From: Peredibacter starrii
Lineage (GTDB): Bacteria; Bdellovibrionota; Bacteriovoracia; Bacteriovoracales; Bacteriovoracaceae
NCBI RefSeq assembly: GCF_034259205.1
Contig: NZ_CP139487.1
Location: 496,001 to 560,000, forward strand
DNA: 64,000 nucleotides
Direction: 5' to 3'
This document shows positions 1 through 17,838 of the stretch, one piece after another; position 1 is the stretch's first letter; each line of letters begins with the position of its first letter. Under the pieces are notes generated by a model that searched no databases, was not told the origin of the DNA, and worked only from the letters and a program-made list of their open reading frames with translations. The translations under genes and the position numbers were made by a program.

Positions 1-584
1 TTCAGAAGTTCATTGTTGTGAATATTCACTACATAAGACCAATCGATGATTTTAGGAGAGTGGTTTTTGAAGTAGTCCAACGCCCACTTGTTGTCCTCCA
101 TATATTTGGTCTCTTTAGCGAGCATCTTTTTTGTGTTAAGCGGGACGAGAAATTCCAAAATCATTTTTTCCCGGAAGAGCTCATTGTTATCCAGAATGCT
201 AAACAGCTCCTTAAAGTGTTCGCGATTGAGATTATCAAACACACAAGCGGCCGTGATACGCGTCTTCTCGTTTAGCTGCAGGAGTTTTTGAAATGTCGGA
301 TGAAGCAGCACTTCTTTTGTATTGTGAGCACTAAAGAACTCAGTGGGGGCAAGAATGATTTCGCGAAAGCGAAGCCCTTCGCCGGCCAGGCCTTTAGCAA
401 TGGTATAAGCTCTCTCCAGGGCCTCTTCCCAATTATTTACATCTCGAACCTTCCGGACATAACAGCCTTCACAGGAATGGATACAGCCATTCAGGATATC
501 CAGACTCAGTACAAAATCCATGTTCTCAATATTATCAAGATTGGTTTTGGACATTTTTTCCAGGAAGTTGGTTTCAATTGTCAT
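1..584 (-). CDS. Radical SAM protein, paralog A (partial, cut by left edge)
   Basis: The first 194 residues are present; the 3' end lies outside the window. A CxxxCxxC cluster motif (C34, C38, C41; NGCIHSCEGC) marks a radical SAM [4Fe-4S] enzyme, and an APTEFF motif follows near residues 79-84. Both positions match the two genes just upstream (586-1707 and 1679-2776), so this is the third member of a tandem paralog set. Translation starts one base after the TGA of the preceding gene, with a GGAG about eight bases upstream of the ATG. Substrate unknown. Family assignment is from the motif and alignment by eye to its neighbours. Confidence 0.85.
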   Translation of the reverse strand, partial: MTIETNFLEKMSKTNLDNIENMDFVLSLDILNGCIHSCEGCYVRKVRDVNNWEEALERAYTIAKGLAGEGLRFREIILAPTEFFSAHNTKEVLLHPTFQKLLQLNEKTRITAACVFDNLNREHFKELFSILDNNELFREKMILEFLVPLNTKKMLAKETKYMEDNKWALDYFKNHSPKIIDWSYVVNIHNNELL

Positions 585-585
585 A

Positions 586-1707
586 TCAGTACTCCACTGT
601 TTTATACGAAGATCGATAAAGCTTTTTAGGTACCACACAACTCGTGATCTGATTCATTTTCATGAATTGAATATGGTTCCGGGAAACACAATTCGGTAGA
701 AACGGACAGCCCGCGCACTCAGGAAGGTCTTCGGCGTGAGCATATTGCTGAATAGTCAATTCTTCACGTTTCGCAAAGACATCACCCATATAAAAGCGAC
801 CATCTTCACGTGCTCTGATTTCCAGTTCCGGCTTTTTCAGGGCCACGAATTCATAAAAGTACGGGGCTATAAAAAGACGCCCATCGGTGTAAGAGAGAGG
901 GTGGAAAGTGTCCCCACCGAAATAAATATCAATCATGTTCATGAAAACATTTCGGATTTTGCTGTCATCAATCTGATTTTCAAGAAGATGGCTCAATGTT
1001 TTTGACTGCTTTTCAATTAAAGCTGCATTTTTGGCACGAGCAAAAGAAGGATTGATTTTAAATTTAGTACCGTAATCGGAGCGTATCCGGGCATTAAGCT
1101 CAGTGATACTGATATTGTCGAACATCTCTGGATAGAAATTTGCGATGAAAAAGATGTTTACCTGCTTCTTCAAGCGGCCATCAATATCAGCGATGACTTT
1201 CAGGTTTCGATCAAATTGTTCCAGATATTCTTTGTCGCCTGCGTGATACTTTTCAATATCCAGAATCACGAACAACTCGAATCTCTTTCCGTATGGGGCC
1301 ATGATATTGGAGAGTTTCTTTACCCGACGCTTTAATTCCTCATGTTCGGTCAACATGGTTGAAGTGAAAGTCAGGGCGGCATACTGCTCTACCAGGCGGT
1401 CAAATAGAGGAGCATCGACTAATTGATCGAAGTTACCGGCCTCAAAAATGTCAGTCGGGCCCAAAAAAAGTTCATTGGCATCAATTCCTTGATTCAAAAA
1501 CTCCTGAGTCAATATATGGATGTTTTCCAAATCCCGTGTGGTGAATTTGTTCTTTCTTTCCACAAAACATCCCGGACATTTCATGTCACATCCGTCCAGG
1601 ACATCAAAAATGATATCTAGTTCCACGGTTGGAGTGTATTTCAGTGGCTTCGTTCCGCTAATGTGCTTTCGATAAGCATCAAACAGCACGGCCATGGGCC
1701 TCTCCAT
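586..1707 (-). CDS. Radical SAM protein with C-terminal Cys cluster, paralog B
   Basis: A 373-residue radical SAM enzyme candidate. C40, C44 and C47 form the CxxxCxxC motif (DGCDMKCPGC). A LGPTDIF motif near residues 82-88 sits where many radical SAM enzymes have GGE. The C-terminus carries CxxC-x5-C-x16-C (C331, C334, C340, C357), like a SPASM or twitch domain that binds an auxiliary iron-sulfur cluster. The gene overlaps the end of paralog C by 29 bases; an alternative ATG at 1695, behind a GGAGAGG, would shorten the overlap. Known relatives with SPASM tails modify peptides or proteins, but the substrate here is unknown. Confidence 0.85.
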   Translation of the reverse strand: MERPMAVLFDAYRKHISGTKPLKYTPTVELDIIFDVLDGCDMKCPGCFVERKNKFTTRDLENIHILTQEFLNQGIDANELFLGPTDIFEAGNFDQLVDAPLFDRLVEQYAALTFTSTMLTEHEELKRRVKKLSNIMAPYGKRFELFVILDIEKYHAGDKEYLEQFDRNLKVIADIDGRLKKQVNIFFIANFYPEMFDNISITELNARIRSDYGTKFKINPSFARAKNAALIEKQSKTLSHLLENQIDDSKIRNVFMNMIDIYFGGDTFHPLSYTDGRLFIAPYFYEFVALKKPELEIRAREDGRFYMGDVFAKREELTIQQYAHAEDLPECAGCPFLPNCVSRNHIQFMKMNQITSCVVPKKLYRSSYKTVEY

Positions 1708-2776
1708 TTCCTAACCCCAAAAAGCAGTCTTTGATTTCGTTTGCTTCCATATAGGTCAGGACGTTTTTATAAGTGCAGGACACCAGATATTCACAGCCTT
1801 CACAGTGATTCGTTTTGGATGAATAGTTCATTTGTTTAACAAATGAGTTCTCCTTAGATTCTAAAAGATCAGACAATGTGTATTCCGATTGCTGCTTTTG
1901 AATTAAAAAGGAGTCTTCATAGGAAAAGACGTTTTCGTAGATGAAGGGACACAGATAGAAATTCCCTTCCCTAAAATTCACCACCAGATTATTCATACCG
2001 CTATGGCTTTTATTCACCATGGTGTAGGTGAAGTTATTAGCATTCTTAAGGCTGTTTTCCCGAATGGTTCTCATCCAGAATTTCAGGTTATCTTTTTGTT
2101 TTTGATGCTTAATTCGAAGGATCGAAGGGTTGAACTCTAAAATGGTGTCGAATTCGGCCTTAATCTCCTGGGCCAGTCTCGTTAAGTTATCCGGATTGTA
2201 TTTAATGAGATTTGCCGGATGAATATTGATCTGAAAGGCGGGATCAAATTCTAAGGATGACTCCTTCAGAATCTGCCATTTGCTCTTCATTTCCTGAAGG
2301 TACTGTTTATTGGTTAAGAATTCATCAATATCAGTGGCGATCAATAGATCAATATCCAGGTGACCGACACTTTCCTCCAGCACCTTGAGCTTTTGGCGAA
2401 TTTCTTCACCGCTGGCCTTAAGTGTAGAGGTCATTACGAATTTAGTGTCTTCGTTTTTAAAAAGGCGTTTAAAGGCCGGATGAGTGATGACTTCCAGGGT
2501 GTTTTTAGCGCTAAAAAAATCCGTAGGTCCCAGGGCTATTTCTTCCAAATGCAGATTACTGGCATTCACTTCATCTGCCAGGCGAGCAATGGTTTCCAGA
2601 TCGCGATTAAGATCATAGGAATTAATGCCTTTATTAACAAAGCATCCGGCACAGGTTTGTCCGCACCCATTTAAAAGATCGACATTCATGAAGACATAGA
2701 AATTGCTGGAGCGTTGAAGCTCCACATTTACATGTCCTGCAATGTTCATTCTCTCAAACAGGTTTTTTCTGATCAT
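1679..2776 (-). CDS. Radical SAM protein with C-terminal Cys cluster, paralog C
   Basis: A 365-residue protein with the radical SAM motif at C38, C42 and C45 (NGCGQTCAGC), a GPTDFF motif at about 83-88, and a C-terminal cluster C325, C328, C334, C351. The spacing of all three elements is nearly the same as in paralog B, so the two probably arose by tandem duplication and then diverged; most of the sequence between motifs differs. The start overlaps the 3' end of the upstream unknown gene by 23 bases, which fits translational coupling inside one operon. Function is inferred only as SAM-radical chemistry on an unknown substrate. Confidence 0.85.
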   Translation of the reverse strand: MIRKNLFERMNIAGHVNVELQRSSNFYVFMNVDLLNGCGQTCAGCFVNKGINSYDLNRDLETIARLADEVNASNLHLEEIALGPTDFFSAKNTLEVITHPAFKRLFKNEDTKFVMTSTLKASGEEIRQKLKVLEESVGHLDIDLLIATDIDEFLTNKQYLQEMKSKWQILKESSLEFDPAFQINIHPANLIKYNPDNLTRLAQEIKAEFDTILEFNPSILRIKHQKQKDNLKFWMRTIRENSLKNANNFTYTMVNKSHSGMNNLVVNFREGNFYLCPFIYENVFSYEDSFLIQKQQSEYTLSDLLESKENSFVKQMNYSSKTNHCEGCEYLVSCTYKNVLTYMEANEIKDCFLGLGNGEAHGRAV

Positions 2777-3509
2777 CAGTTTCCACCATTGGAATCTTAC
2801 CGTTTTTAATCTGAAGCATGATTCCCATCGAGAAATAGGCGAAGTGACTCAAATGTTTCTCTGTTGCAAGAAAGTTAATGAGTTTTTCACCGCCGTAAAT
2901 GTATTCATCGAAGTAGTAAGGAAAGTATGGATGCTGAAGTAGAGTCTTCATCTCGGTCGGATCAAAAAAGAGGCTCAGGAAATCAGGCAGGGCCAGCAGT
3001 TGACTGATGTTCACACCAATATTTGGAATTTTACCTTCCACTTTCGGATGATCCAGTTTCCATTGTTTGATTTCATCTTCACTATGGATCTTATTGGTCG
3101 ACATGATGAGGTAAAGCGGAATTGAATTAATAAGTCCGCACCACTGCTGGATCATTTCTTCATGGTTCACGATAAAGTTGGCATAGTTTTCTAATGAGAA
3201 GTGACTCTCAACATCTACATAAGGCATTCTTTGATATTTATAACCAAGAATAATATTGGCAATTATTTGCGGAAGATTAGTGGTTTCAATCACAAAATTG
3301 GCCGTCATGTACTCTTCCAGAACCGCAGGAGTGATGTTCCCAATTTCCGCCTTGATTCTCATATTACTCAGAGTCATGAAGCATTGTTTAGGTGTGATTC
3401 GGCTATTGGCCATATCAATACGGAACAGGATGCTCTTATCTTTGAAGTATTCAATCTGGTTTTGCGGTGACAAGGGAAGTGTCACATCTAATATGCGCTG
3501 ATTAGTCAT
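2754..3509 (-). CDS. Unknown protein of the radical SAM operon (251 aa)
   Basis: I do not recognise this protein. It is soluble-looking, with no signal peptide or convincing membrane segment and no iron-sulfur motif. Its start overlaps the stop of the gene upstream by eight bases, and its end overlaps paralog C, so it is co-translated with the radical SAM genes. Position between unknown gene 3502-4602 and the paralog set suggests a partner, for example a substrate-recognition or scaffold subunit; that is inference. The reading frame is supported by the tight overlaps and by absence of long competing frames. Confidence 0.75.
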   Translation of the reverse strand: MTNQRILDVTLPLSPQNQIEYFKDKSILFRIDMANSRITPKQCFMTLSNMRIKAEIGNITPAVLEEYMTANFVIETTNLPQIIANIILGYKYQRMPYVDVESHFSLENYANFIVNHEEMIQQWCGLINSIPLYLIMSTNKIHSEDEIKQWKLDHPKVEGKIPNIGVNISQLLALPDFLSLFFDPTEMKTLLQHPYFPYYFDEYIYGGEKLINFLATEKHLSHFAYFSMGIMLQIKNGKIPMVETDDQKKPV

Positions 3510-4602
3510 TTAAAACCACCTGGTCTTTGCGCGCTAATTTAACTGATACATAGTGAATTAACGTCGTATTCATCTTATTGGTGTATTCTTTGAAAAAATC
3601 GAGTTCATGGAGATTGGGTCCGGCACCACTCAAGATTTCATCCAGCGCCTTATCCTGATTTGGACCGTAGTAGACTTCCTGAATCTTTTTAAACTCATCA
3701 TAACTTGGAAATGGATCATGAGAGTCCAGATCATAGGCCTTAAGAAGGGACATAAGAAATTTAATTTCTTCCAGGCGTTCTTCCACCCAAGTCACATCCT
3801 TTGTACTGATGCGCTTTATGAAAAGACCATTTAATAGTTCGTCTTCTTCTAAAATGGGAACAATATCGTCGTAGGCCTCAATATCTATACCTTTAAAGTC
3901 CTTGAGGACTCTTGCATCGTTCAAAAGTGTTTCCAGACCGCTTTTAACCACCTGAATAAGGGACATGCCTACCATGTAGGATTTCAGGCTTTGAAACTTT
4001 GCCTTAAGTTCCTGTTTGGATATCTTTCCATGAGCATAAAACAAAAATACATATTCAAAAGGTAGGCTCACAATAGTTTTATCTTTGAACAGGAGATCAC
4101 ACTCTGGAATTTCTCCAATATCATCTTTAAAGGCCCTGTACAATTCTACGCTTAGATTCAAACGCTTATTGTCCCAAATCCAAAACCGCTCATTGGTTTT
4201 CTTGATAATACTTCGGAGAATTTCATGGCTGAGACCAAAGGTCTGATCAATTTGAACCAGAGAATATAGGAAAAAGGGGACCATCGTGTCGTAGCCGACA
4301 TAGATTTTAATCGCGTTGTCTTTTTCTGAATGGAGAAGATTTGCCAGTCCTCCGTATTCTCTTTGCGCATGCTTAATAAATTCAAAAAAGTCTCCGGCGT
4401 TAAAGAGCGGAGCGAAATGGGAAAAGGTAATGTCTTTCCAGTACTCGCCAATATAAATACTGGCGCTTGTTGGATGGGGATCAATGTGTGCTCTTGCACG
4501 TGAGACACAGATATAGTGTTTATCCAAAATATTTAGATAAAGCATGGCATGGTTATAGCCATGAACCGGCAGTAGCTCTACGGCTGGTTTATCTTCACTC
4601 AC
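3502..4602 (-). CDS. Unknown protein of the radical SAM operon (366 aa)
   Basis: Unrecognised, rich in charged and aromatic residues, no signal peptide, no Cys cluster motif. I choose the GTG at 4602 over the TTG at 4629: the GTG shares one base with the TAG stop of the upstream gene (TAGTG) and has an AGGA about nine bases upstream, while the TTG would force a 28-base overlap. It is followed with an eight-base overlap by another unknown gene. Being embedded between a candidate substrate and three radical SAM paralogs, it may be a partner or carrier protein. No function can be assigned from sequence alone. Confidence 0.75.
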   Translation of the reverse strand: MSEDKPAVELLPVHGYNHAMLYLNILDKHYICVSRARAHIDPHPTSASIYIGEYWKDITFSHFAPLFNAGDFFEFIKHAQREYGGLANLLHSEKDNAIKIYVGYDTMVPFFLYSLVQIDQTFGLSHEILRSIIKKTNERFWIWDNKRLNLSVELYRAFKDDIGEIPECDLLFKDKTIVSLPFEYVFLFYAHGKISKQELKAKFQSLKSYMVGMSLIQVVKSGLETLLNDARVLKDFKGIDIEAYDDIVPILEEDELLNGLFIKRISTKDVTWVEERLEEIKFLMSLLKAYDLDSHDPFPSYDEFKKIQEVYYGPNQDKALDEILSGAGPNLHELDFFKEYTNKMNTTLIHYVSVKLARKDQVVLND

Positions 4603-5168
4603 TATCTTCTTCCTCTCGAAGCGTGACAAGGAGGTGGTGTAGGAACATTGGTATGACAGTAATTAAAAGTACCATCCAGACGGTTAGAAAAGTGTTCCAC
4701 AATTTTTGCCCACACTTCCGAGTCTGCCACTGAAGTTATAAAGTTATCATCACCGATTCTCACTCCTGGTGCCCCGTTAAAATTAAGAATGTAGTTAATT
4801 TCATCTGGATTTGCGATGTATGAGGTCCTTGAAATATCTGCCCAATAGGCCTTAACGGTTTTTGAAGAAGGAGGGGCACCTTCAAACACAATGTTGAAAG
4901 TTCTTAGAACAGCATAAGTTCTAACCAGCGTGTGAATATAGGCCCTGACCGCGCCTGAGTTATTGATACTTCCAACTGGAAAAGGGTTTGCGGGTTGAGT
5001 CGGATAGTATGCCGTGGTGATTTGCCAAACTCCGCCAAAATAATAACCGGAGTTTTGAGCATCGATGAAATCGGCGGTCACCATCCCGTTGGCACGGGCC
5101 ACAGTGTAGTTATGGTCAAACCTAAGTTTGGTCAAAAGAGAAGCATAGTTAAAACGTTCACCTGCCAT
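4602..5168 (-). CDS. Unknown 188-aa protein, candidate substrate of the radical SAM operon
   Basis: Unrecognised protein rich in Tyr, Asn, Thr and Ala, with no signal peptide. Its only cysteines are in the C-terminal tail: C171 and C181 flank a TNVPTPPP stretch, followed by HASRGRR. The ATG has a good AGGA six bases upstream. Unlike every other gene of this operon it is separated from the gene before it (29 bases) and has its own near-consensus promoter (5188-5217). A strongly expressed small protein with a distinct Cys/Pro tail among six radical SAM enzymes fits a modified substrate; that role is inference. It could also be a structural or regulatory partner. Confidence 0.75.
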   Translation of the reverse strand: MAGERFNYASLLTKLRFDHNYTVARANGMVTADFIDAQNSGYYFGGVWQITTAYYPTQPANPFPVGSINNSGAVRAYIHTLVRTYAVLRTFNIVFEGAPPSSKTVKAYWADISRTSYIANPDEINYILNFNGAPGVRIGDDNFITSVADSEVWAKIVEHFSNRLDGTFNYCHTNVPTPPPCHASRGRR

Positions 5169-5187
5169 AAATTCCTCGCATGACTAA

Positions 5188-5217
5188 ATTATATTGCCTA
5201 TTTTGCGAGAGAGTCAA
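5188..5217 (-). promoter_or_regulatory. Sigma-70 type promoter inside the operon, in front of the 188-aa gene
   Basis: Reading the minus strand, TTGACT (5217-5212) and a perfect TATAAT (5193-5188) are separated by 18 bases. The predicted start lies near 5181, giving a leader of about 12 bases that includes the AGGA ribosome site of the 188-aa gene. The promoter overlaps the last codons of the upstream radical SAM gene. It is the best promoter match in the first 10 kb. Confidence 0.65.
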
Positions 5218-6238
5218 AAAACCGCTTATTAACACAACCTTTAGATCGCACTCTGTCCTTCCATGACCAGGAAACTGGGCATCTTAAGGGACAGCTTTGA
5301 TAGTACTCGCAACTTAAACATTGATTTTCTTCGATAAAGCGATAGAGCATGTTGGAATTGTCCTGATAATTTACCTCTGTGACAAAGCTCTCTGGGGGGT
5401 GTCTTTCCCATAAATAGTTGGTGACCTTATTATTGGGAAGAATGTTGCATTTATTGAATGTCGTGAATTGGATTTCGTTCGGAGACTGGGTCAACACTTT
5501 TGAAATCGCCTCACCAAATGGCAGGAGTTTTGGATATTTTTTGACAACTAACTCCAAATACTCCAGATACTCTTCATCACTTGGAATCATGCGACTGGTT
5601 TCTACATCTGGTAAAAAGTCGTCCATGAATATGGGAAATTCCTGGTAGAGCCGGTCAAATTGCTCATTTCCCTTTTTAAGTTCCCGAATGGCCTCTTTTG
5701 TTACGACCACATTGATATTTGAAATGAATTGCCGAAAGATTTTAAGGTTTAAGAAGTACTGCTTAGTTAAGGGGCGTCCAAAAGGATCAAAGGAAGCAAT
5801 TAATCGTACGAACACCGTTTCGTTAAGTTTTTCGAGCCACTTGATGACCACATCTGACTTGGTGGTAAGCATGTTACTCACCAGGATTATTCTGGGTTCA
5901 ATCTGACGTCTTTCACAGATTCGTTGATACTCAGAAATCAAAAGTTCATAGCGAGCGAGGAAATCATCAACTCCATCAATAAGTCGGTCCTGTAAAAGTT
6001 CTCCTCCTACCAGGTGGAGGTTCACCATTTCGACATCCGAATCAATTTCATCCAAAAAGTTTTCAATTAAAGGAATTTTAGACAGCATCTCCTCAGTTTT
6101 CATCCCGATGACCGAGCTTTTCTCATGGGCGCAAAACGTGCAATTCACATCGCAGTTTTCGAACAAAGTGAGTTCGATTTCCGCCACGCGGGGCTTTTTG
6201 TTACCCAAAACTGTTTTTAGATATCCTAAGGTATCCAT
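5198..6238 (-). CDS. Radical SAM/SPASM-like protein (346 aa)
   Basis: Radical SAM motif at C29, C33 and C36 (CDVNCTFC), followed by a GGE-type motif (LVGGELLQ) and a C-terminal cysteine cluster (C307, C310, C316, C320, C335) typical of SPASM-like auxiliary cluster domains. A longer frame opens at 6331, but I place the start at the ATG at 6238. It has AAGGA just upstream and overlaps the previous gene by only 13 bases, whereas the longer version would overlap by more than 100. The gene directly precedes the candidate substrate gene. It is not close to the A/B/C paralogs and keeps the GGE motif they lack. Confidence 0.85.
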   Translation of the reverse strand: MDTLGYLKTVLGNKKPRVAEIELTLFENCDVNCTFCAHEKSSVIGMKTEEMLSKIPLIENFLDEIDSDVEMVNLHLVGGELLQDRLIDGVDDFLARYELLISEYQRICERRQIEPRIILVSNMLTTKSDVVIKWLEKLNETVFVRLIASFDPFGRPLTKQYFLNLKIFRQFISNINVVVTKEAIRELKKGNEQFDRLYQEFPIFMDDFLPDVETSRMIPSDEEYLEYLELVVKKYPKLLPFGEAISKVLTQSPNEIQFTTFNKCNILPNNKVTNYLWERHPPESFVTEVNYQDNSNMLYRFIEENQCLSCEYYQSCPLRCPVSWSWKDRVRSKGCVNKRFFDSLAK

Positions 6239-6678
6239 GTGTTCCTTGGGAGAGTTTGCAGCCCCTCTGGATCTAACATGTATTCCTGACGAATAAGCCG
6301 ATGAGTGATCGCCATTCGCGGACTTTCCCAAACAATCTTTTCTCGAGGCACAAGCTTCAGGATTTCATCATAAGTACTTTTGTCTTCCTGATAGGTCTTG
6401 AAGAAGGGATCATTTCCATGCATGAGTTCTGGATTGTTTAGAACGGAGAAGAAGTCTTCATTGAACTCTCGGGCAATGAAATCGGCCACCGCAATGGCCA
6501 CTGCTCGGGCGGCCCCGGGAAATTTTAAATAGGAACTCCCGTCCAGGAGGTATGTTACAGCATCTTTAACGACAGAGGACTCGTGTATGCCATAGTCAAA
6601 GTTCTTGTGCTCGTCTTCAAAAGACTCATGTCCGTGCATCTGATAAAAAACCGTCCGGCGGTATTCAAATTCTTTCAT
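6226..6678 (-). CDS. Unknown 150-aa protein of the radical SAM operon
   Basis: A small protein with no cysteines, a His/Glu/Asp-rich N-terminus and a central Ala-rich helix (about residues 55-70). I recognise no family. It starts by a four-base ATGA overlap with the radical SAM gene before it and ends inside the next one, so it is translationally coupled on both sides. The size and absence of cysteines would suit a small partner protein such as a peptide-binding chaperone, but nothing in the sequence proves that. Confidence 0.75.
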   Translation of the reverse strand: MKEFEYRRTVFYQMHGHESFEDEHKNFDYGIHESSVVKDAVTYLLDGSSYLKFPGAARAVAIAVADFIAREFNEDFFSVLNNPELMHGNDPFFKTYQEDKSTYDEILKLVPREKIVWESPRMAITHRLIRQEYMLDPEGLQTLPRNTWIP

Positions 6679-7790
6679 ACCTTACCGCCCGTTTTTTCAT
6701 AGTAATCATCGTTCATGATTTCAATGTTCGGTTCCTCATAATTGATACGAAGAATATCGGAGGCAATGGCCTTCATATTGGAACAATGCTCTTCCGCCAT
6801 TCCAGAGGTCTTCATGTCTTTAACGTGTTTTCGGCAGCCGTTACAAATTTGGAACATTTCACATGAGTAGCATTCCATTTTAATGGCATCGATTTGGATA
6901 TCATCCTGAAGGGGAGTGAAAAATTTGTTCTTTCTGACTTCTTGGTCAAAATCAATTTCATATTCCCTATCATCACCAAAGGACCCACAGCTGAAATATT
7001 TCCCGTCCGGTTGAAGTAATCTGATGCCTTCATCGCAACTGCGGTGAAGTGGACAAATCGTTAACCGGGTCTTAGTCAGTCGATTGGCCATCTGGCGGGT
7101 GTTCCACTCATGTTGAGCAAGTCCCTCATTCCAGATTTGAATATAAATTTGGTAAACATAGGCGAGGGGTAGGGGCTCTTTACACTCACCACTCATATTG
7201 GCGTAGTTAATTTTGCAATCAACTCCCAGGCGTTTTGCCAGGCGGACCGTATCCAGAGCGGTGTGAAGATTGTTTTTTTCAATGACCGCGATAAAAGAGG
7301 GGCGATAGCCCACTTTCTCCAGCATTAAATCCGAAATTTTAATGAAATCTTCTTCAGAAAAAACTCGGCCCGGTCGAATGAGTCTTCCTTCCCCGTATTG
7401 AAAGGAAGTCCCCACTCTCACGATTGGGTGTCTGAAGAGTTTGGTCCAGGCCTTTTCCGGTAAATCATTCTCCCACTCAAGCCAAAACTTCCAGAGATTA
7501 GTCGTGATAGAAATGATGGTAGGGTAGTTATTTTTCTCAATGTGTTCAATCAGCTGCCAATAGTAGTTAACTGGCATCATGGTGGGATCCCCACCGTTCA
7601 CAATGATAGTTTGCGTATTGGGAAAGCGCTGGAGGAACTCATAAATGGTTTCAAGATGGAGAGTCAGTTTTTTATCATCCACCAGATGAGTAGAACTACA
7701 AAAAGTGCAGGCGAAGTTACAGGCCTCCGTGGGCTTGATAATCAAGTCCATAGTTCTCGGATCCTGTTGAATAACTTCACTCGTTTTCAT
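6675..7790 (-). CDS. Radical SAM/SPASM protein (371 aa)
   Basis: C24, C28 and C31 (CNFACTFC) bind the SAM cluster; NGGDPTMM is the GGE-like SAM-binding motif. The C-terminal third carries many cysteines (CPLHRSC, then SCGSFG, then CYSCxxxxxCNGC and a final Cys). This order is typical of SPASM domains with two auxiliary clusters, as in anaerobic sulfatase-maturating and peptide-modifying enzymes. It overlaps the oxygenase gene before it and the 150-aa gene after it by four bases each. It is the most complete SPASM-type enzyme of the set. Confidence 0.88.
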   Translation of the reverse strand: MKTSEVIQQDPRTMDLIIKPTEACNFACTFCSSTHLVDDKKLTLHLETIYEFLQRFPNTQTIIVNGGDPTMMPVNYYWQLIEHIEKNNYPTIISITTNLWKFWLEWENDLPEKAWTKLFRHPIVRVGTSFQYGEGRLIRPGRVFSEEDFIKISDLMLEKVGYRPSFIAVIEKNNLHTALDTVRLAKRLGVDCKINYANMSGECKEPLPLAYVYQIYIQIWNEGLAQHEWNTRQMANRLTKTRLTICPLHRSCDEGIRLLQPDGKYFSCGSFGDDREYEIDFDQEVRKNKFFTPLQDDIQIDAIKMECYSCEMFQICNGCRKHVKDMKTSGMAEEHCSNMKAIASDILRINYEEPNIEIMNDDYYEKTGGKV

Positions 7791-8398
7791 AGCTTTAAGT
7801 CTATTGGTAAATCGAAAATCTCATATTGTTTTGAAATCGTAAGATCCTGAGGCCACACCCCAAACCCCAAATGAACTGATGCCTTTTCGCCTGCTTTTGC
7901 GCGATGGCGGGCCCCATAGGGAATATAGAGAATCGTGCCTTCTTTTAATAAATGGCCACTGATACTCTGATCTGGTTCTTCAACTTCAAAATACTTCTCA
8001 CCTTTTTGCATTATCACGTACACGTCACGGTCGTCCGTGTGCCATCCAAAACCTGAAGCATGAGGAGGAGAAAGATAGAGGTGCACATTGGTAGGAAGCT
8101 TAAAACCAGCACATTTTTTTATAATGGCTTCATTCCAGTTTTCCACCTCTTTAATGACAATAGTGTTTCCTTTCTTATAGGCCTCTTCCAGTAATTTAAT
8201 TCTTTCCGGTACGATGCCGTAATTAAAGGTGCGGGTATCATCATAAGTGCCTTCAGCGCTCACAATGAAATGAGAGTGTTGATCATGTAGATATTCATTG
8301 CGAAGCATGTTTAAAACGTCTGCCTCATCAATAAGGCGAGTTTCTTCAGTCTTCGCTTCGATTAATTTGGAGAAGACCTGAAAATTTTTAAATTCCAT
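7787..8398 (-). CDS. JmjC/cupin-type Fe(II) oxygenase-like protein (203 aa)
   Basis: The C-terminal half shows a cupin/JmjC pattern: H120 and D122 (GWHTDD) and H165 (IPYGARH), the usual 2-His-1-Asp iron ligands, with a GTILYIPYG strand before the last His. Known relatives, such as the RoxA/YcfD and MINA53 group, hydroxylate proteins using 2-oxoglutarate. I use the ATG at 8398 (AAGGAG nine bases upstream) in place of the TTG at 8425. It overlaps the preceding radical SAM gene by 11 bases and the next by four. An oxygenase among six radical SAM enzymes suggests several successive modifications of one target; that is inference. Confidence 0.8.
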   Translation of the reverse strand: MEFKNFQVFSKLIEAKTEETRLIDEADVLNMLRNEYLHDQHSHFIVSAEGTYDDTRTFNYGIVPERIKLLEEAYKKGNTIVIKEVENWNEAIIKKCAGFKLPTNVHLYLSPPHASGFGWHTDDRDVYVIMQKGEKYFEVEEPDQSISGHLLKEGTILYIPYGARHRAKAGEKASVHLGFGVWPQDLTISKQYEIFDLPIDLKL

Positions 8399-9488
8399 GG
8401 GGTCCGTCTCCTTTGGCGCCGACAATGAGCTTTTTATAAGATGGAATATCGTTATCTCTTATCATCTGCTGCCAGATTTTTTTAGGAGCTGAACAGTAAT
8501 TGGTTTCTTTGTCCCAGGGAAGTTTATTGCAATCACTGTTACAGTACTCAAAGGCCTCGCACTTATAACATTCTTCCGGTCGATCCAGGCTTTCGCATGC
8601 GATTGCTTTAATTCTCTTTTCTGCCTTCAGGCTTTGAAGCACCGGCCATTCGATGTGACCCCAATGTTCAGAAGGTGCTGTATTAGGGCAGCCCCCAATG
8701 GTTCCATCAGCATTAATCGTAATGAGACTCTGCTCACACATTCTACAGCGATTAGCAGTGTGTTCATGATTAACATAGGCCCGGGCAAGCTCTGACATCA
8801 ACATATTGCCGATGTATTCATATGTTTTGTATTCAAGGCTCTGGTTGAACATGCGATGCAGCCATTCGTCCTGCTTTTGATTAGAAGGAAGAATACTTTC
8901 ATTGGTTTTGGCATTTCCGTCAGATGTGATCCTTTCAAAGAGGATATTCTGAAAACCAAGGCCTTTGGCATATTCGATGATTTCAATAGGTTCTTTTTCT
9001 TCAATGAGGTTCTTGGTAATCGAAACAATCATCGTGATGTAGTGCCCATCACGAATCAGGGTTTTGACGTTATTTTCCCAAAGTTCTTTTTGAGATTCAG
9101 AGGTAAATCTGATGTCATAGTCCCAGGAAGTACCGAAGCCTTCAGTCAAAAACACTTCTTTAATAAAGTTTCTTCTCTCCGGAGTGAGATGATAGGCAAG
9201 ATTGGTTTGAAGAGAGAACTGGGTTTCCGGGAAAATATTCTTCAGACCGTGATAGGCCTCGTACAGGTCCTCCATCGGGGCCAGAAGTGGCTCGCCTCCA
9301 TGGAACATGTAGCGGATGCTTTTGATCCAACCGCATTCTTGTTTTAGTCTTTCAAAAAAAGAGATGGTTTTTTTTGGTGAGAAAAAGATTTTTTTGCCAT
9401 TGGTACCGCTCGTAAAACAATGCTTACAATTTAAATTACAAGTCTCAGTTGTTTTTAAATAGACGCTTACGTTTGCGGCAAGAATCAT
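8388..9488 (-). CDS. Radical SAM/SPASM protein (366 aa)
   Basis: C17, C21 and C24 (CNLNCKHC) with FHGGEPLL, the classic SAM-binding GGEP motif, are followed by a SPASM-type Cys region (CRMC, GGCPN, CYKCxxxxYCNSDC and a late Cys). This is the most canonical radical SAM/SPASM member of the operon and resembles peptide-maturation enzymes. Its ATG shares one base with the stop of the membrane-anchored gene upstream (TAATG). The product probably carries one SAM cluster and up to two auxiliary clusters. Confidence 0.88.
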   Translation of the reverse strand: MILAANVSVYLKTTETCNLNCKHCFTSGTNGKKIFFSPKKTISFFERLKQECGWIKSIRYMFHGGEPLLAPMEDLYEAYHGLKNIFPETQFSLQTNLAYHLTPERRNFIKEVFLTEGFGTSWDYDIRFTSESQKELWENNVKTLIRDGHYITMIVSITKNLIEEKEPIEIIEYAKGLGFQNILFERITSDGNAKTNESILPSNQKQDEWLHRMFNQSLEYKTYEYIGNMLMSELARAYVNHEHTANRCRMCEQSLITINADGTIGGCPNTAPSEHWGHIEWPVLQSLKAEKRIKAIACESLDRPEECYKCEAFEYCNSDCNKLPWDKETNYCSAPKKIWQQMIRDNDIPSYKKLIVGAKGDGPHGI

Positions 9489-10042
9489 TAGAGTTTTCTC
9501 TCCATCTCAGCCGCCTTCTTTGCCTCATATAGATCATCAATGAATTTTCTCACTTCTTTTGCCTTTGCCGGGCTGCCTTTTTCGTACTCAGCTTCGTTTC
9601 TTAAATACTGGTCACTTTGTTGGACCAGATGATCAAACTGATCCTGCGAATATTTCGCCAAAAGGCGGTTCTTTAATAGTGGAGCGTAGTCATGAAGGTC
9701 ATCAAGCTTATCTTCTAGAATGACCGGTCTTGGAGATTGTTCCGGAATTTTCGCCCATTCAGGAGTCGGAGGAGCAACCGATGGAGTCGCTTGAGTAGTT
9801 TGTTCAGTACTAGGGCGGACAACCGGCTCTGCTGGTACTTCTGCGGGTGTCCCCGGCGTTGTTTCTGTTACCGCTATCGGCGCTGTTGGTTCCACTGGTT
9901 TTACGACCTCAGGTTGAGGATTCGTATTTTTAGGAATGACGTAGGGCTTGGGCTGTTCTTTGCTTTGTGCCTGCGGTTTCGGTCTGAAGAACCAGAACAA
10001 TCCACCCATAACGATAAAAAACAAAATTAAGCGAAGATGCAT
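9488..10042 (-). CDS. Membrane-anchored proline-rich protein, first gene of the operon
   Basis: A 184-residue protein with one N-terminal hydrophobic segment (about residues 3-18, no clear cleavage site), then a Pro/Glu/Thr-rich linker of roughly 85 residues and a charged helical C-terminal domain of about 75. This is the layout of an inner-membrane-anchored protein with its soluble domain beyond a flexible linker. I choose the ATG at 10042 (GAGAG upstream); an ATG at 10069 would put extra residues before the membrane segment. Leading the operon, it could tether the machinery or product to the envelope. Confidence 0.7.
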   Translation of the reverse strand: MHLRLILFFIVMGGLFWFFRPKPQAQSKEQPKPYVIPKNTNPQPEVVKPVEPTAPIAVTETTPGTPAEVPAEPVVRPSTEQTTQATPSVAPPTPEWAKIPEQSPRPVILEDKLDDLHDYAPLLKNRLLAKYSQDQFDHLVQQSDQYLRNEAEYEKGSPAKAKEVRKFIDDLYEAKKAAEMERKL

Positions 10043-10090
10043 ATTCACACTCTCAATTTCAAAGGTCATATGATCGCTACCGATGTTTAA

Positions 10091-10116: not shown

Positions 10117-10476
10117 TTAGCTTAGGTGCCAATTATTAGAGTCAGAATTATAGGTAAGCTTAATTATTGCTAAGGTATCAAGCCTAAGTGGCTCAGGTTT
10201 CCCGAGGATGCAATTTTCATAGTACTCTATTACCGAAGAGTTTCTCACAATGATATGGACGTGATCATTATCCTTTGGCCGAAATGGAAGTTCGATTAGA
10301 GTGTCTTCTTCCGTTGAATAGACCTCCCCATTTCGTAGTGTTTTTATCTTCTTTTTCCTTCGAAACTTTTTAACAGGGACAATCTGATCGATGTTTGAGT
10401 TAAAAGCTTGAGTATTCGGCATTACGCTGATTACTGCGACTGCGATGATCGAATATAAGAGCTCTCTTCTATTCAT
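10117..10476 (-). CDS. Small secreted protein (119 aa)
   Basis: The N-terminus is a signal peptide (MNRREL, a hydrophobic stretch, then cleavage probably after NTQA). The mature part has a very basic patch (FRRKKKIK, near residues 40-47) and no recognised domain. I take the ATG at 10476; the one at 10494 lies inside the GCCGATAA element and has no ribosome site. Position between the radical SAM operon and the pilin-like gene does not reveal a role. Confidence 0.7.
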   Translation of the reverse strand: MNRRELLYSIIAVAVISVMPNTQAFNSNIDQIVPVKKFRRKKKIKTLRNGEVYSTEEDTLIELPFRPKDNDHVHIIVRNSSVIEYYENCILGKPEPLRLDTLAIIKLTYNSDSNNWHLS

Positions 10477-10484
10477 ACCTGATC

Positions 10485-10513
10485 TTATCGGCATAATTGT
10501 TCATAAAGTTTTA
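10485..10513 (-). promoter_or_regulatory. Sigma-28 (FliA)-like promoter before the small secreted protein
   Basis: An exact GCCGATAA (10492-10485, minus strand), the consensus -10 of FliA-type sigma factors, has a TAAA 17 bases upstream (10513-10510; consensus spacing is 15). The -10 ends 8 bases before the ATG at 10476, so the transcript would be almost leaderless. The same arrangement occurs in front of three other secreted-protein genes in this window. Confidence 0.45.
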
Positions 10514-10574: not shown

Positions 10575-11705
10575 ATGTGGTCTAATAAACAAAGTGGGTT
10601 CTCGCTTCTTGAAATTATGGTGGCTTCAGCTTTACTAGGGGGACTTGCCCTTGCCGGTGCCAAATTAATGGAAAACCAAACCAAAAATATGAAGACAGTT
10701 GAAGTACGTGGTGAGTACCAGGCCGTACTGACTGATATTCGAAGTATTCTTGCAGTCGCTGAAAATTGTCGATCTACCTTTAATGGAATCAACTTATCCA
10801 CGCCCTCGATCGCGGCCCCTGCCTCTCAACGAATTATTTCTCTTGCGCCTGACAACTCCCCTCAACCTAGATATCAGGCCAACTCCAACTGGCGCTTGGC
10901 CCAAGCATACGGGAACGGGCAAGTCAGAATTCTCTCCTATCGAATTACAACATCCCCAGATCCCTCTGATCCTGAAATTGGAATTCCCGCTGCTGCTCCT
11001 GCACCTCCGGCAACGACTAAATTAGGTGCAGTCAATCTACATGTTACTTTTCACTTCGGTGAAGGCCGAACTGTAGGTGCAGAAACGATCGAAAGAAAAA
11101 TCCGCTTAAATGTAGAAGTAAATGCTGCGAACACTTTAGTTGGATGTACTTCAACTGGAGGACTTGGATGGGACGCTAGATACATTTGGCGAGTAGGAGG
11201 AACGGCCGGAGTGATGACAGGTAATCTTACCATGTCGAATAATGCATTAATTATTCTCCAGGCCGGATCTTCTTTGGTTGCTCAAAATGGAACTTCAATC
11301 GTTATGCAAGATTCATCCGTCATCGATTTTACCTCTGACCAAAAATTCAAATACGATGTACGTGATCTAAATGGACTTTTACCTAAGATCAGAGAAACCA
11401 GACCCGTAAGATATAAATGGAAATCAAACAATAAAGAAGCTTACGGTGTTATCGCTCAAGAGTTACAGGAAATTTTCCCTGAACTCGTGAGAAGAAAGGG
11501 TCCCAACAATTCACTTACTGTAGATTATATTCAGTTGACCCCTCTCTTGCTTCAGGGTCTGAAAGAAATGGATATCGAAAACAAAGTACTAAAAAGCACA
11601 ATTAAAGAACTCAAAAATGAGCAGGTCAGAATGCAAGGTGATCTGGAGAATTTGAAAAAGATGATCTGTAAAAACAATCAATCAAAAGAATGCTTTAATC
11701 AGTGA
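10575..11705 (+). CDS. Type IV pilin-like protein with C-terminal Peptidase S74 domain
   Basis: The N-terminus is a class III prepilin signal: cleavage after G8, methylated F9, E13 at mature position +5, then a hydrophobic helix. A central domain of about 200 residues follows. From about residue 250 there is an S74 intramolecular chaperone signature: SDQKFK (S254, K259), GVIAQELQEIFPELV near 291-305, and a C-terminal coiled coil. S74 domains drive trimerisation of phage tail spikes and then cut themselves off, using a Ser-Lys dyad. Fusion to a minor-pilin N-terminus suggests a pilus-exposed fibre. The gene is followed at eight bases by its companion. Confidence 0.88.
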   Translation: MWSNKQSGFSLLEIMVASALLGGLALAGAKLMENQTKNMKTVEVRGEYQAVLTDIRSILAVAENCRSTFNGINLSTPSIAAPASQRIISLAPDNSPQPRYQANSNWRLAQAYGNGQVRILSYRITTSPDPSDPEIGIPAAAPAPPATTKLGAVNLHVTFHFGEGRTVGAETIERKIRLNVEVNAANTLVGCTSTGGLGWDARYIWRVGGTAGVMTGNLTMSNNALIILQAGSSLVAQNGTSIVMQDSSVIDFTSDQKFKYDVRDLNGLLPKIRETRPVRYKWKSNNKEAYGVIAQELQEIFPELVRRKGPNNSLTVDYIQLTPLLLQGLKEMDIENKVLKSTIKELKNEQVRMQGDLENLKKMICKNNQSKECFNQ

Positions 11706-11713
11706 GGTGAAAT

Positions 11714-12298
11714 ATGGGACGCTTATCAAATCGACTTTATAAAATTGAATTTGGTGGAGTCGGGGCCAGTGGACTTCAAATAACGAGAGCCACCTGGGGG
11801 GGAGGCGTCTCTGTACCGGCAGAAGATCCGAACGGAGGTTATCTTTATTCCAATGTTGATTTCATCGCTCCGAGAGTCTGGAACGCAGTCTGGAACGACA
11901 TCGCTGACTATCAACTTCTCTGCGACAAATTAGAGTATGGAAAATGCTACTTCGATACCAAAGATGGGGCGAAGATTTGTAATGAACGCTGCCAGATGAG
12001 TGTGATAGGTATTGCTTCTGATACTTTTGGGTATGGTGTAGGTCGAGGTGGAAATAATTCTGAAGTTCCTATTGGTGTAGCAGGATGGGTTCTCGCTTAC
12101 GTAGATCAAGAGTATGAATGTGGCACTCCTCTCACAAATGATGAGTTCGGGAACCTCACCGCCATGACGAAACAAGAGAAAATGGAATACCCGGAACGCA
12201 TTGTTGGTATCTACAAGCGCAAAGAAATGGAAAATTTCTGGGGACCTGAAGGTCAAAAGATTGAAGTTAAAGGCCGACATTGGGTGAAAATAAAGTAG
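11714..12298 (+). CDS. Unknown protein paired with the pilin-S74 gene
   Basis: A 194-residue protein rich in Gly, Trp and Tyr with no signal peptide, starting eight bases after the pilin-S74 gene with a GGTGA ribosome site. The last 70 residues (a YVDQEYE segment, then VGIYKRKE and a final GRHWVKI) loosely resemble the ends of phage tail or Peptidase G2-type autoproteolytic domains; this is a weak by-eye resemblance. Six cysteines lie mostly in the middle and could form disulfides. Probably works with the upstream pilin-like protein. Confidence 0.7.
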   Translation: MGRLSNRLYKIEFGGVGASGLQITRATWGGGVSVPAEDPNGGYLYSNVDFIAPRVWNAVWNDIADYQLLCDKLEYGKCYFDTKDGAKICNERCQMSVIGIASDTFGYGVGRGGNNSEVPIGVAGWVLAYVDQEYECGTPLTNDEFGNLTAMTKQEKMEYPERIVGIYKRKEMENFWGPEGQKIEVKGRHWVKIK

Positions 12299-12450: not shown

Positions 12451-12526
12451 GGGGGTGTAGCTCAGTTGGGAGAGCGCCAGCTTTGCAAGCTGGATGTCGC
12501 AAGTTCGATCCTTGTCATCTCCACCA
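12451..12526 (+). tRNA. tRNA-Ala (UGC)
   Basis: A 76-base cloverleaf with encoded CCA. The acceptor stem GGGGGUG pairs with CAUCUCC and includes the G3-U70 pair that identifies alanine tRNA; the anticodon loop TTTGCAA gives UGC. It is co-transcribed upstream of 16S; in most bacteria this tRNA sits in the 16S-23S spacer. Confidence 0.97.
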
Positions 12527-12829
12527 AGTTTCTAAAATTTTTCTAAAGATTTTTGAAAAAAAAGCTTGCAGAAGAAAAAATGAACTGATAAAACGCTAAG
12601 CTCTTTGACAACTTAATAACGAATAAATTTTTTGAAACCTTCGGGTTTCAAGATGAGATGAGAATGGAACCCGTTCAATTGCCTAGTCTTCCGTAAGTTT
12701 TAGTACTTCGGTACAGGAAGACGGCTAAGAGACGAAAGTCTTTTATGTTGTAAAACAAATTTGAACTAATTCTTGAACAAAACAAGAATCTAGAGTCACC
12801 AAATAAACTTTAAGTTTTATTTAAATATA
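12527..12829 (+). other. rRNA leader with boxA and 16S processing stem (5' arm)
   Basis: This 303-base gap holds no gene. It contains a boxA-like antitermination site (GCTCTTTGACAA, 12600-12611), a small hairpin around 12636-12650, and a sequence at 12652-12681 that is largely complementary to 14390-14425 behind 16S. That pair would form the long stem cut by RNase III. A further hairpin (about 12688-12722, AGTCTTCC/GGAAGACT-like arms) follows. Confidence 0.75.
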
Positions 12830-14364
<1,535 letters not shown>

Positions 14365-14389
14365 TTAAAGGAAAACCTTATAGGGTCAA

Positions 14390-14425
14390 TCAATCGAACG
14401 CGGTTCCATTCATCATCATCTCATC
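14390..14425 (+). other. 16S processing stem (3' arm)
   Basis: The segment CAATCGAACGCGGTTCCATT and the following CATCATCATCTCATC are complementary, with a few bulges, to the leader at 12652-12681. The two arms enclose 16S and would be the RNase III substrate. Confidence 0.65.
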
Positions 14426-14490
14426 ATAAAAATAAGAGAAATTGAAAATTCATAGGGTACTTACCAGTCTCTATGATCCTAGTTTAAAAA

Positions 14491-14568
14491 TGGGATTGTA
14501 GCTCAGGTGGTTAGAGTACGTCCCTGATAAGGACGGGGTCGCAAGTTCGAGTCTTGCCAGTCCCACCA
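14491..14568 (+). tRNA. tRNA-Ile (GAU)
   Basis: A 78-base cloverleaf with encoded CCA. Acceptor TGGGATT pairs with AGTCCCA and the anticodon loop CTGATAA gives GAU. It is the only tRNA in the 16S-23S spacer, where Ile and Ala usually occur together. Confidence 0.97.
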
Positions 14569-14590
14569 TTTTTGAACTTCAGTTTCTTTC

Positions 14591-14643
14591 GTTCTTTGAC
14601 AATCACATAACAGGATAAGCAAGCAGACGAGAACCATGTAGTA
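14591..14643 (+). other. Second boxA-like site and 23S processing stem (5' arm)
   Basis: GTTCTTTGACAA (14591-14602) repeats the boxA-like motif of the leader, as is common before 23S. The following ACAGGATAAGCAAG and GAACCATGTAGT (14609-14643) pair with 17640-17678 behind 23S to form the processing stem. Confidence 0.65.
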
Positions 14644-14677
14644 ATTTTTTTTAAAAGAATCCATGCTAAAAAACTAA

Positions 14678-17598
<2,921 letters not shown>

Positions 17599-17639
17599 TT
17601 TCTTTGCCTCTCTACGCTAGAGAGGGGTTTTAAAGTGTG

Positions 17640-17678
17640 GAACTACATGGTTCAAAATTTGTCTTGCTTATCTTGTTT
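17640..17678 (+). other. 23S processing stem (3' arm)
   Basis: GAACTACATGGTTC and TCTTGCTTATCTTGT are complementary to 14609-14643. Just upstream, at 17607-17630, a CCTCTCT/AGAGAGG hairpin followed by TTTT lies between 23S and 5S. Confidence 0.65.
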
Positions 17679-17719
17679 TGTGATTGTAAAAGTGCAGTCT
17701 ACCTAAATTGAAATACAGT

Positions 17720-17838
17720 TTGGGTGTGTCGATAGCGGTGAGGAAATACCCAGTAACATCTCGAACCTGGAAGTCAAGCTCACTTGCGGCGAAGGTAGTG
17801 CCAGGGGAACTTGGTGTCAGAATAGCAAGATGCACCCT
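17720..17838 (+). rRNA. rrf: 5S ribosomal RNA
   Basis: About 119 bases. The ends GGGTGT and GCACCC pair to close helix I, and the interior holds the usual conserved segments (ATACCCAGTAACATCTCGAAC and GCGAAGGTAGTG). Ends are approximate. Confidence 0.93.

Follow-up and report, generated by a model that had tools for sequence, protein, structure and literature searches.

The window analysed here, a stretch of 64,000 nucleotides from Peredibacter starrii (contig NZ_CP139487.1, positions 496,001 to 560,000), carries a gene, TAIL, whose product ends in a previously undescribed C-terminal tag. The tag occurs in many viruses of bacteria and in some relatives of predatory bacteria, nearly always in the company of one recurring set of radical-SAM and oxygenase genes. 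No description of this tail, or of a modification of virions by phage radical-SAM enzymes, was found in the open-access literature. We consider it probable that TAIL is the dedicated substrate of the surrounding cassette, with some form of association with fibres. A sequence-only reading had already proposed TAIL as the substrate of the neighbouring radical-SAM enzymes, and this proposal was supported by a near-invariant tail on a fast-evolving body, the occupation of the equivalent slot in phages, and a strict association of tail and cassette.

Cassette organization and expression signals

The shared cassette comprised a cupin/JmjC protein, rSAM366, TAIL, p251, p375, rSAM377, rSAM371, rSAM306, p150, and a 2OG oxygenase; their positions in the window and those of the neighbouring genes are given in Table 1. 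The radical-SAM enzyme rSAM366, whose orthologs directly adjoin TAIL in most phages, resembled PapB, DarE, and sulfatase-type maturases, with all scores far below the cut-offs. No RRE/PqqD recognition domain was found in p251, p375, or p150 with Pfam or NCBIfam models, which distant RREs can escape. The last gene of the operon, an rSAM306-like gene to the left of the window (L026:8557-9501), has CNFRNGKCAETC in place of the CxxxCxxC motif and may therefore have an altered cluster site. An rRNA operon with two tRNA genes lies just beyond p194 (window 12451-17838).

Table 1. Features of the TAIL region, with positions counted from the first nucleotide of the window.
Feature	Position	Strand	Remarks
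TAIL, tail-tagged protein, 188 aa	4602..5168	-	No Pfam/NCBIfam family
C-terminal tag YCHTNVPTPPPCHASRGRR, proposed modification site	4605..4661	-	Near-invariant in congener alignment; same tag family in phages
GAGG ribosome site of TAIL	5174..5177	-	Sequence; GAGG precedes start in congeners too
TTGACT-N18-TATAAT promoter of TAIL	5188..5217	-	Kept in G081, G082, G086, G087
Further radical SAM gene	1..653, frame continues past left edge of window to -495	-	Followed by 314-aa rSAM306-like gene
rSAM373, divergent radical SAM (CDMKCPGC)	586..1707	-	
rSAM365, divergent radical SAM (CGQTCAGC)	1679..2776	-	
p251, conserved cassette protein, usually adjoining TAIL in phages	2754..3509	-	phrog_20767
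p375, conserved cassette protein	3502..4629	-	56-58% in congeners; phage p375-slot genes near TAIL and p251
rSAM377	5198..6238 (ATG start; first-listed TTG 6331)	-	27-30% to phage orthologs
p150, conserved cassette protein	6226..6678	-	phrog_20737; phage homologs
rSAM371, most conserved cassette enzyme	6675..7790	-	49-51% identical to jumbo-phage orthologs
Cupin/JmjC_2 oxygenase-like protein	7787..8425 (ATG alternative 8398)	-	PF08007 47.8 bits, cut-off 22; phage orthologs
rSAM366, radical SAM/SPASM maturase	8388..9488	-	PF04055; 35-42% identity to phage orthologs
Pro-rich protein, 193 aa, one N-terminal hydrophobic segment; first gene of overlapping run	9488..10069	-	
p125, small protein accompanying prepilin gene	10117..10494	-	
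Prepilin (N_methyl PF07963) fused to C-terminal Peptidase_S74 tail-fibre chaperone (PF13884)	10575..11705	+	Homologs near cassette in other genomes
p194, frequent partner of S74 prepilin and cassette	11714..12298	+	

Between positions 10069 and 586, all gene junctions overlapped (-1 to -38 nt) except the one 5' of TAIL, where a gap of +29 nt was present, as the sequence-only reading had claimed. The promoter and ribosome site that it had assigned to TAIL were likewise confirmed. The promoter (minus-strand hexamers 5217-5188) had 11 of 12 consensus matches and ranked first among 22 candidates in a scan of 11 kb; since 22.7 candidates were expected by chance at the same threshold, this score by itself proves little, and the weight of the promoter comes from its conservation in four genomes of the same genus. 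In these congeners (G087, G081, G086, and G082), identical hexamers with 18-nt spacing occurred at the equivalent position, with a diverged spacer and followed by GAGG and ATG. Because the -35 hexamer overlaps the final codons (FFDS) of the upstream rSAM gene, coding constraint may explain part of this conservation; in G087 and G081 the -10 hexamer overlaps the stop codon. Promoters of this kind were absent from most other, more distant members of the family, and G047 has TTGACA-N17-TAAAAT. A strong private promoter would supply more substrate than enzyme; that TAIL is needed in such excess, as had been suggested, is plausible, its one basis being a promoter conserved within a single genus.

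The C-terminal tag and its variable body

As previously claimed, TAIL contains exactly two cysteines, C171 and C181, both within the last 18 residues. The window protein matched none of the Pfam, NCBIfam, or PHROG profiles. Its homologs in the four congeners were 30-38% identical over the whole sequence, vs. mostly 56-79% for the cassette neighbours, and all of them end in YCHGNFPPPCHGSRGRR. The conservation of the tail, which had been named as a check on the substrate proposal, was evident in a nearly invariant pattern within the genus (YCHxN..PPPCHxSRGRR), with Y170, C171, H172, N174, P178-P180, C181, H182, S184, R185, G186, R187, and R188 among the residues invariant over five sequences. 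The conserved tail residues are Cys, His, Ser, Pro, and Arg, and the suggestion that Tyr, Asn, and Thr (12, 16, and 15 per 188 residues, respectively) are modified found no support. The tail of relatives outside the genus has three CHxS repeats, which makes it probable that the Pro-rich tail of the window is a derived form.

The tag is very likely the modified site. Alternatively, it could remain unmodified, its Cys and His residues binding a metal or an Fe-S cluster, with TAIL acting as a scaffold or a cofactor carrier for the radical-SAM enzymes. CH repeats are indeed good metal ligands and several Fe-S enzymes are encoded alongside, but this reading would leave five to seven radical-SAM genes and the oxygenases without a substrate; moreover, a cofactor donor needs no near-invariant SRGRR C-terminus, and the body of TAIL evolves fast. 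We consider it improbable.

A scan of genome contigs of close relatives with the 188-aa TAIL as probe gave no match, because the body evolves fast, and rSAM371 is the right probe. A weak match in G035 (contig L025) was rejected as a tail homolog, being an unrelated Cys/His protein; the true tail protein of G035 is encoded on contig L298.

The AlphaFold model of the window protein was poor (pLDDT 37), and the structural comparison rests on the model of a phage member (pLDDT 87.6, pTM 0.81), in which the tail was of low confidence. This phage model matched folds among viral models only, and its comparison with the PDB gave no fold match, a result that falls short of proving a new fold. In Myoviridae ctijX18, three proteins (BFVD A0A8S5USJ7, A0A8S5USJ8, and A0A8S5USV2; 504-660 aa) match the fold of the tail-tagged body. 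Profile comparison with hhalign joined the bacterial and phage TAIL families in one match (95.5%, E 1.4e-8), of which the tail was the strongest part and which is the sole basis for a homology of their bodies. It also linked the two phage families (99.1%), and much of the score in these comparisons came from the tail. These results also bear on the possibility that TAIL is an enzyme whose catalytic cofactor is formed from its own tail, as in quinohemoprotein amine dehydrogenase or the formylglycine sulfatases. Such a role would agree with the resemblance of rSAM366 and rSAM371 to sulfatase and QhpD-type maturases, among others, but the bodies are poorly conserved, range from 124 to 309 aa, and have no relative of solved structure, which makes it a distinctly unlikely explanation.

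Distribution in the bacterial family

In the family to which the window belongs, rSAM371 was present in 13 of 129 genomes, and the CHxSRGRR* tail in 10, all 10 of which carry rSAM371. Homologs without radical-SAM neighbours, named beforehand by the sequence-only reading as an observation that would speak against it, were sought, and none was found for the SRGRR tail. Matches to the tail pattern in genomes lacking the cassette (CHRSRFRR in G028, CHSSRWRR in G084 and G113) were all without SRGRR. The table of tail against rSAM371 (10, 3, 3, and 113 genomes, the three SRFRR/SRWRR matches being counted as tails) gave a Fisher p of 3e-10, a value that overstates independence since the family genomes are related. 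Three cassette genomes had no strict tail: two have the variants YCHSNHCSHSNHGSRGRR and WCHSSHSSHSSHSSRGRR, and the third has no slot in the stretch examined. In the rSAM371 tree, the window, its congeners, and G074 formed one group (100/95 support).

Occurrence of the cassette in phages and viral metagenomes

Both p251 and p150 matched proteins of jumbo phages of Burkholderia and Sinorhizobium, and rSAM371 was 49-51% identical to orthologs in these phages, in Agrobacterium phage Atu_ph07, and in Pseudomonas phage DT01. In these jumbo phages, the slot adjoining rSAM366 is occupied by a protein of 178-306 aa that terminates in CHSSCHTSCHGSRGRR, CHTSCHASCHSSRSRR, CHSSCHASCHNSRSRR, or CHTSCHTSCHSARGRR; ends of the form CHxSCHxSCHxSRGRR occurred in the slot proteins of FLC6, SURPRISE13, Phosso, Atu_ph07, and DT01.

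Scanning IMG/VR for the tail pattern returned at least 120 stretches. Within the 80 loci listed, a recurrent gene order was cupin, rSAM366, TAIL, p251, p375, rSAM377, and another viral class had a tandem pair of tail genes with rSAM365-like genes after them. A scan with rSAM371, which is blind to the tail, found 298 viral relatives. The strict tail was present in 56 of the 80 loci kept of these, and most of the others had no slot or carried variants (CHSSCHSSCHGSI, CHSSCHSSHSSRNRR). The tail pattern was found in 157 of 2646 viral ORFs and in none of 20 residue shuffles of all of them; as the loci of this shuffle test include some fetched by the tail pattern itself, the unconditioned figure is the 56/80 of the rSAM371 scan. 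One viral contig (L172) has rSAM366 and rSAM371 with no visible tail gene, and forms a long branch among bacterial sequences in the tree.

Association with fibre genes

A gene for a tail-fibre C-terminal domain (phrog_19602 and relatives) was present in 87 of 135 tail-bearing viral loci, at distances from TAIL that clustered at 0-13 nt and at about 1.5 kb, with a few lying farther away; the other 48 loci had no fibre domain in the stretch examined. The virion proteins of Atu_ph07 are encoded in three gene clusters, one of which is CDS 170-215 (PMC6102473). The tail protein of this phage is gp170, in a numbering that agrees with the published one at gp215, and the boundary of the cluster suggests that gp170 itself was among the proteins detected in virions.

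On the bacterial side, a prepilin-type gene and p194 lie near the cassette in the window, the four congeners, G074, G029, G051, G106, and G047. The pair of N_methyl and Peptidase_S74 domains was confirmed with Pfam in the window, G074, and G051, the other prepilin-type genes being related to the fusion of the window. The p194 gene was found in 11 of 13 cassette genomes vs. 4 of 116 others (p = 3.8e-11). In Bdellovibrio, S74 fibres are prey-recognition adhesins (PMC10769870). Three genomes without rSAM371 (G003, G048, and G128; loci L305, L306, and L307) also have p194, with a different multi-radical-SAM cassette nearby that includes a protein of 150-187 aa with another Cys-rich tail (CICNTDCACNAVCTCHNDCGCHY and similar). 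The fibre partner p194 seems to be paired across genomes with tail-tagged substrates that can be exchanged.

The location of the tail genes in structural regions of lytic phages argues against TAIL being the precursor of a RiPP natural product, in which the tail would be cleaved and released as a small modified peptide (a signal, metallophore, or bacteriocin). The radical-SAM enzymes of the cassette do resemble PapB, DarE, and DynA, and the core would be C-terminal as in many RiPPs. The body, however, is large and well folded according to the phage model rather than a short leader, and no peptidase, exporter, or other transporter gene for a released peptide was found among the recurring cassette genes or, with Pfam, in the window operon; genes elsewhere could serve. 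We give this explanation little credence.

Proposed mechanism and implications

In the preferred reading, TAIL as a modified substrate would consist of a body of approximately 170 residues and, at its C-terminus, a tag of (CHxS)n units terminated by SRGRR, the middle repeat being replaced in the genus of the window by a Pro-rich spacer. The tag would be modified by the SPASM enzyme rSAM366, aided by rSAM371, rSAM377, and the JmjC/cupin protein. Known members of the JmjC_2 family hydroxylate His or Arg of ribosomal proteins. Given this family match and the likenesses of rSAM366, the leading guess is that the CH units are cross-linked through thioether or carbon bonds and that hydroxylation also occurs, the most plausible chemistry being the linkage of Cys sulfur to neighbouring carbons plus hydroxylation of His or Arg. 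Modified TAIL may then be incorporated into a surface structure resembling a fibre, possibly at the tip; in phages this would be the tail fibre, and in these bacteria an S74-prepilin fibre. Such a tip would perhaps be hardened and belong to a fibre that makes contact with host or prey cells. We put this fibre role for TAIL at slightly less than an even chance. More tentatively still, the tag could mark a widespread class of fibres of phages and predator lineages, in which a dedicated radical-SAM/oxygenase cassette cross-links the (CHxS)n-SRGRR tag to form a tip that possibly binds metal. Many radical-SAM and 2OG-oxygenase genes of phages would then serve to finish virions rather than in metabolism.

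If correct, the proposal names a substrate and a modification site for a cassette that occurs commonly in viral metagenomes and is annotated only as dispersed genes for radical-SAM, cupin, and 2OG-Fe(II) proteins. It would also mean that phages use radical chemistry to remodel a structural protein post-translationally, and that the same toolkit serves relatives of predatory bacteria beside a pilin-like fibre. The substrate claim is directly testable on phages that have already been isolated.

Comparison with known systems

Two features of a radical-SAM-modified protein or RiPP in the broad sense are present in TAIL: a putative substrate gene beside a cognate radical-SAM maturase, and a conserved core. 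It resembles the His-Xaa-Ser system (HxsA-D; TIGR03977 for HxsC, TIGR03978 for HxsB) in that paired radical-SAM maturases accompany what may be a repeated His-x-Ser motif. In the window, the tail contains just two CHx[SN]-like units, and the relatives in G107 and G047 have HxS-like repeats, that of G107 ending in CHSSHSSHSSHSSRGRR. Tails of the HxS type (CHSSHSSHSSHSSRGRR and CHSNHCSHSNHGSRGRR) at L303:4310-4918 and L301:6562-7170 bridge the TAIL family to the His-Xaa-Ser motif. The TAIL cassette differs in its extra Cys, SRGRR end, oxygenases, fibre genes, and occurrence in phages. The best HxsC score in the window was 33.3 bits vs. a curated cut-off of 267.9 bits, which none of the 129 family genomes exceeded, and assignment to the His-Xaa-Ser system was rejected on these model scores.

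PHROG 35144, a family of unknown function, was matched in full by the SURPRISE13 protein (7.7e-119) and by all ten tail proteins tested, some of them weakly, and was the sole PHROG for the phage members; it did not match the window protein, although hhalign ties TAIL to the phage family. In comparison with the PapB-type maturases of ranthipeptides and CXXX-repeat peptides (NF047865 and TIGR04115), rSAM366 resembled PapB (2.3e-14) and CHxS forms a repeat of CxxxC spacing, but rSAM366 reached 53 bits vs. a cut-off of 340, and the TAIL substrate would be a folded protein with a C-terminal tag. The mosaic adhesive trimeric (MAT) fibres of Bdellovibrio with their S74 chaperones (PMC10769870) are similar in being S74-ended fibre proteins from the same phylum, and they serve in prey recognition. 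They differ in that the S74 domain of the window belongs to a prepilin fusion, with p194 and a radical-SAM cassette as its partners; the text of PMC10769870 mentions no radical SAM.
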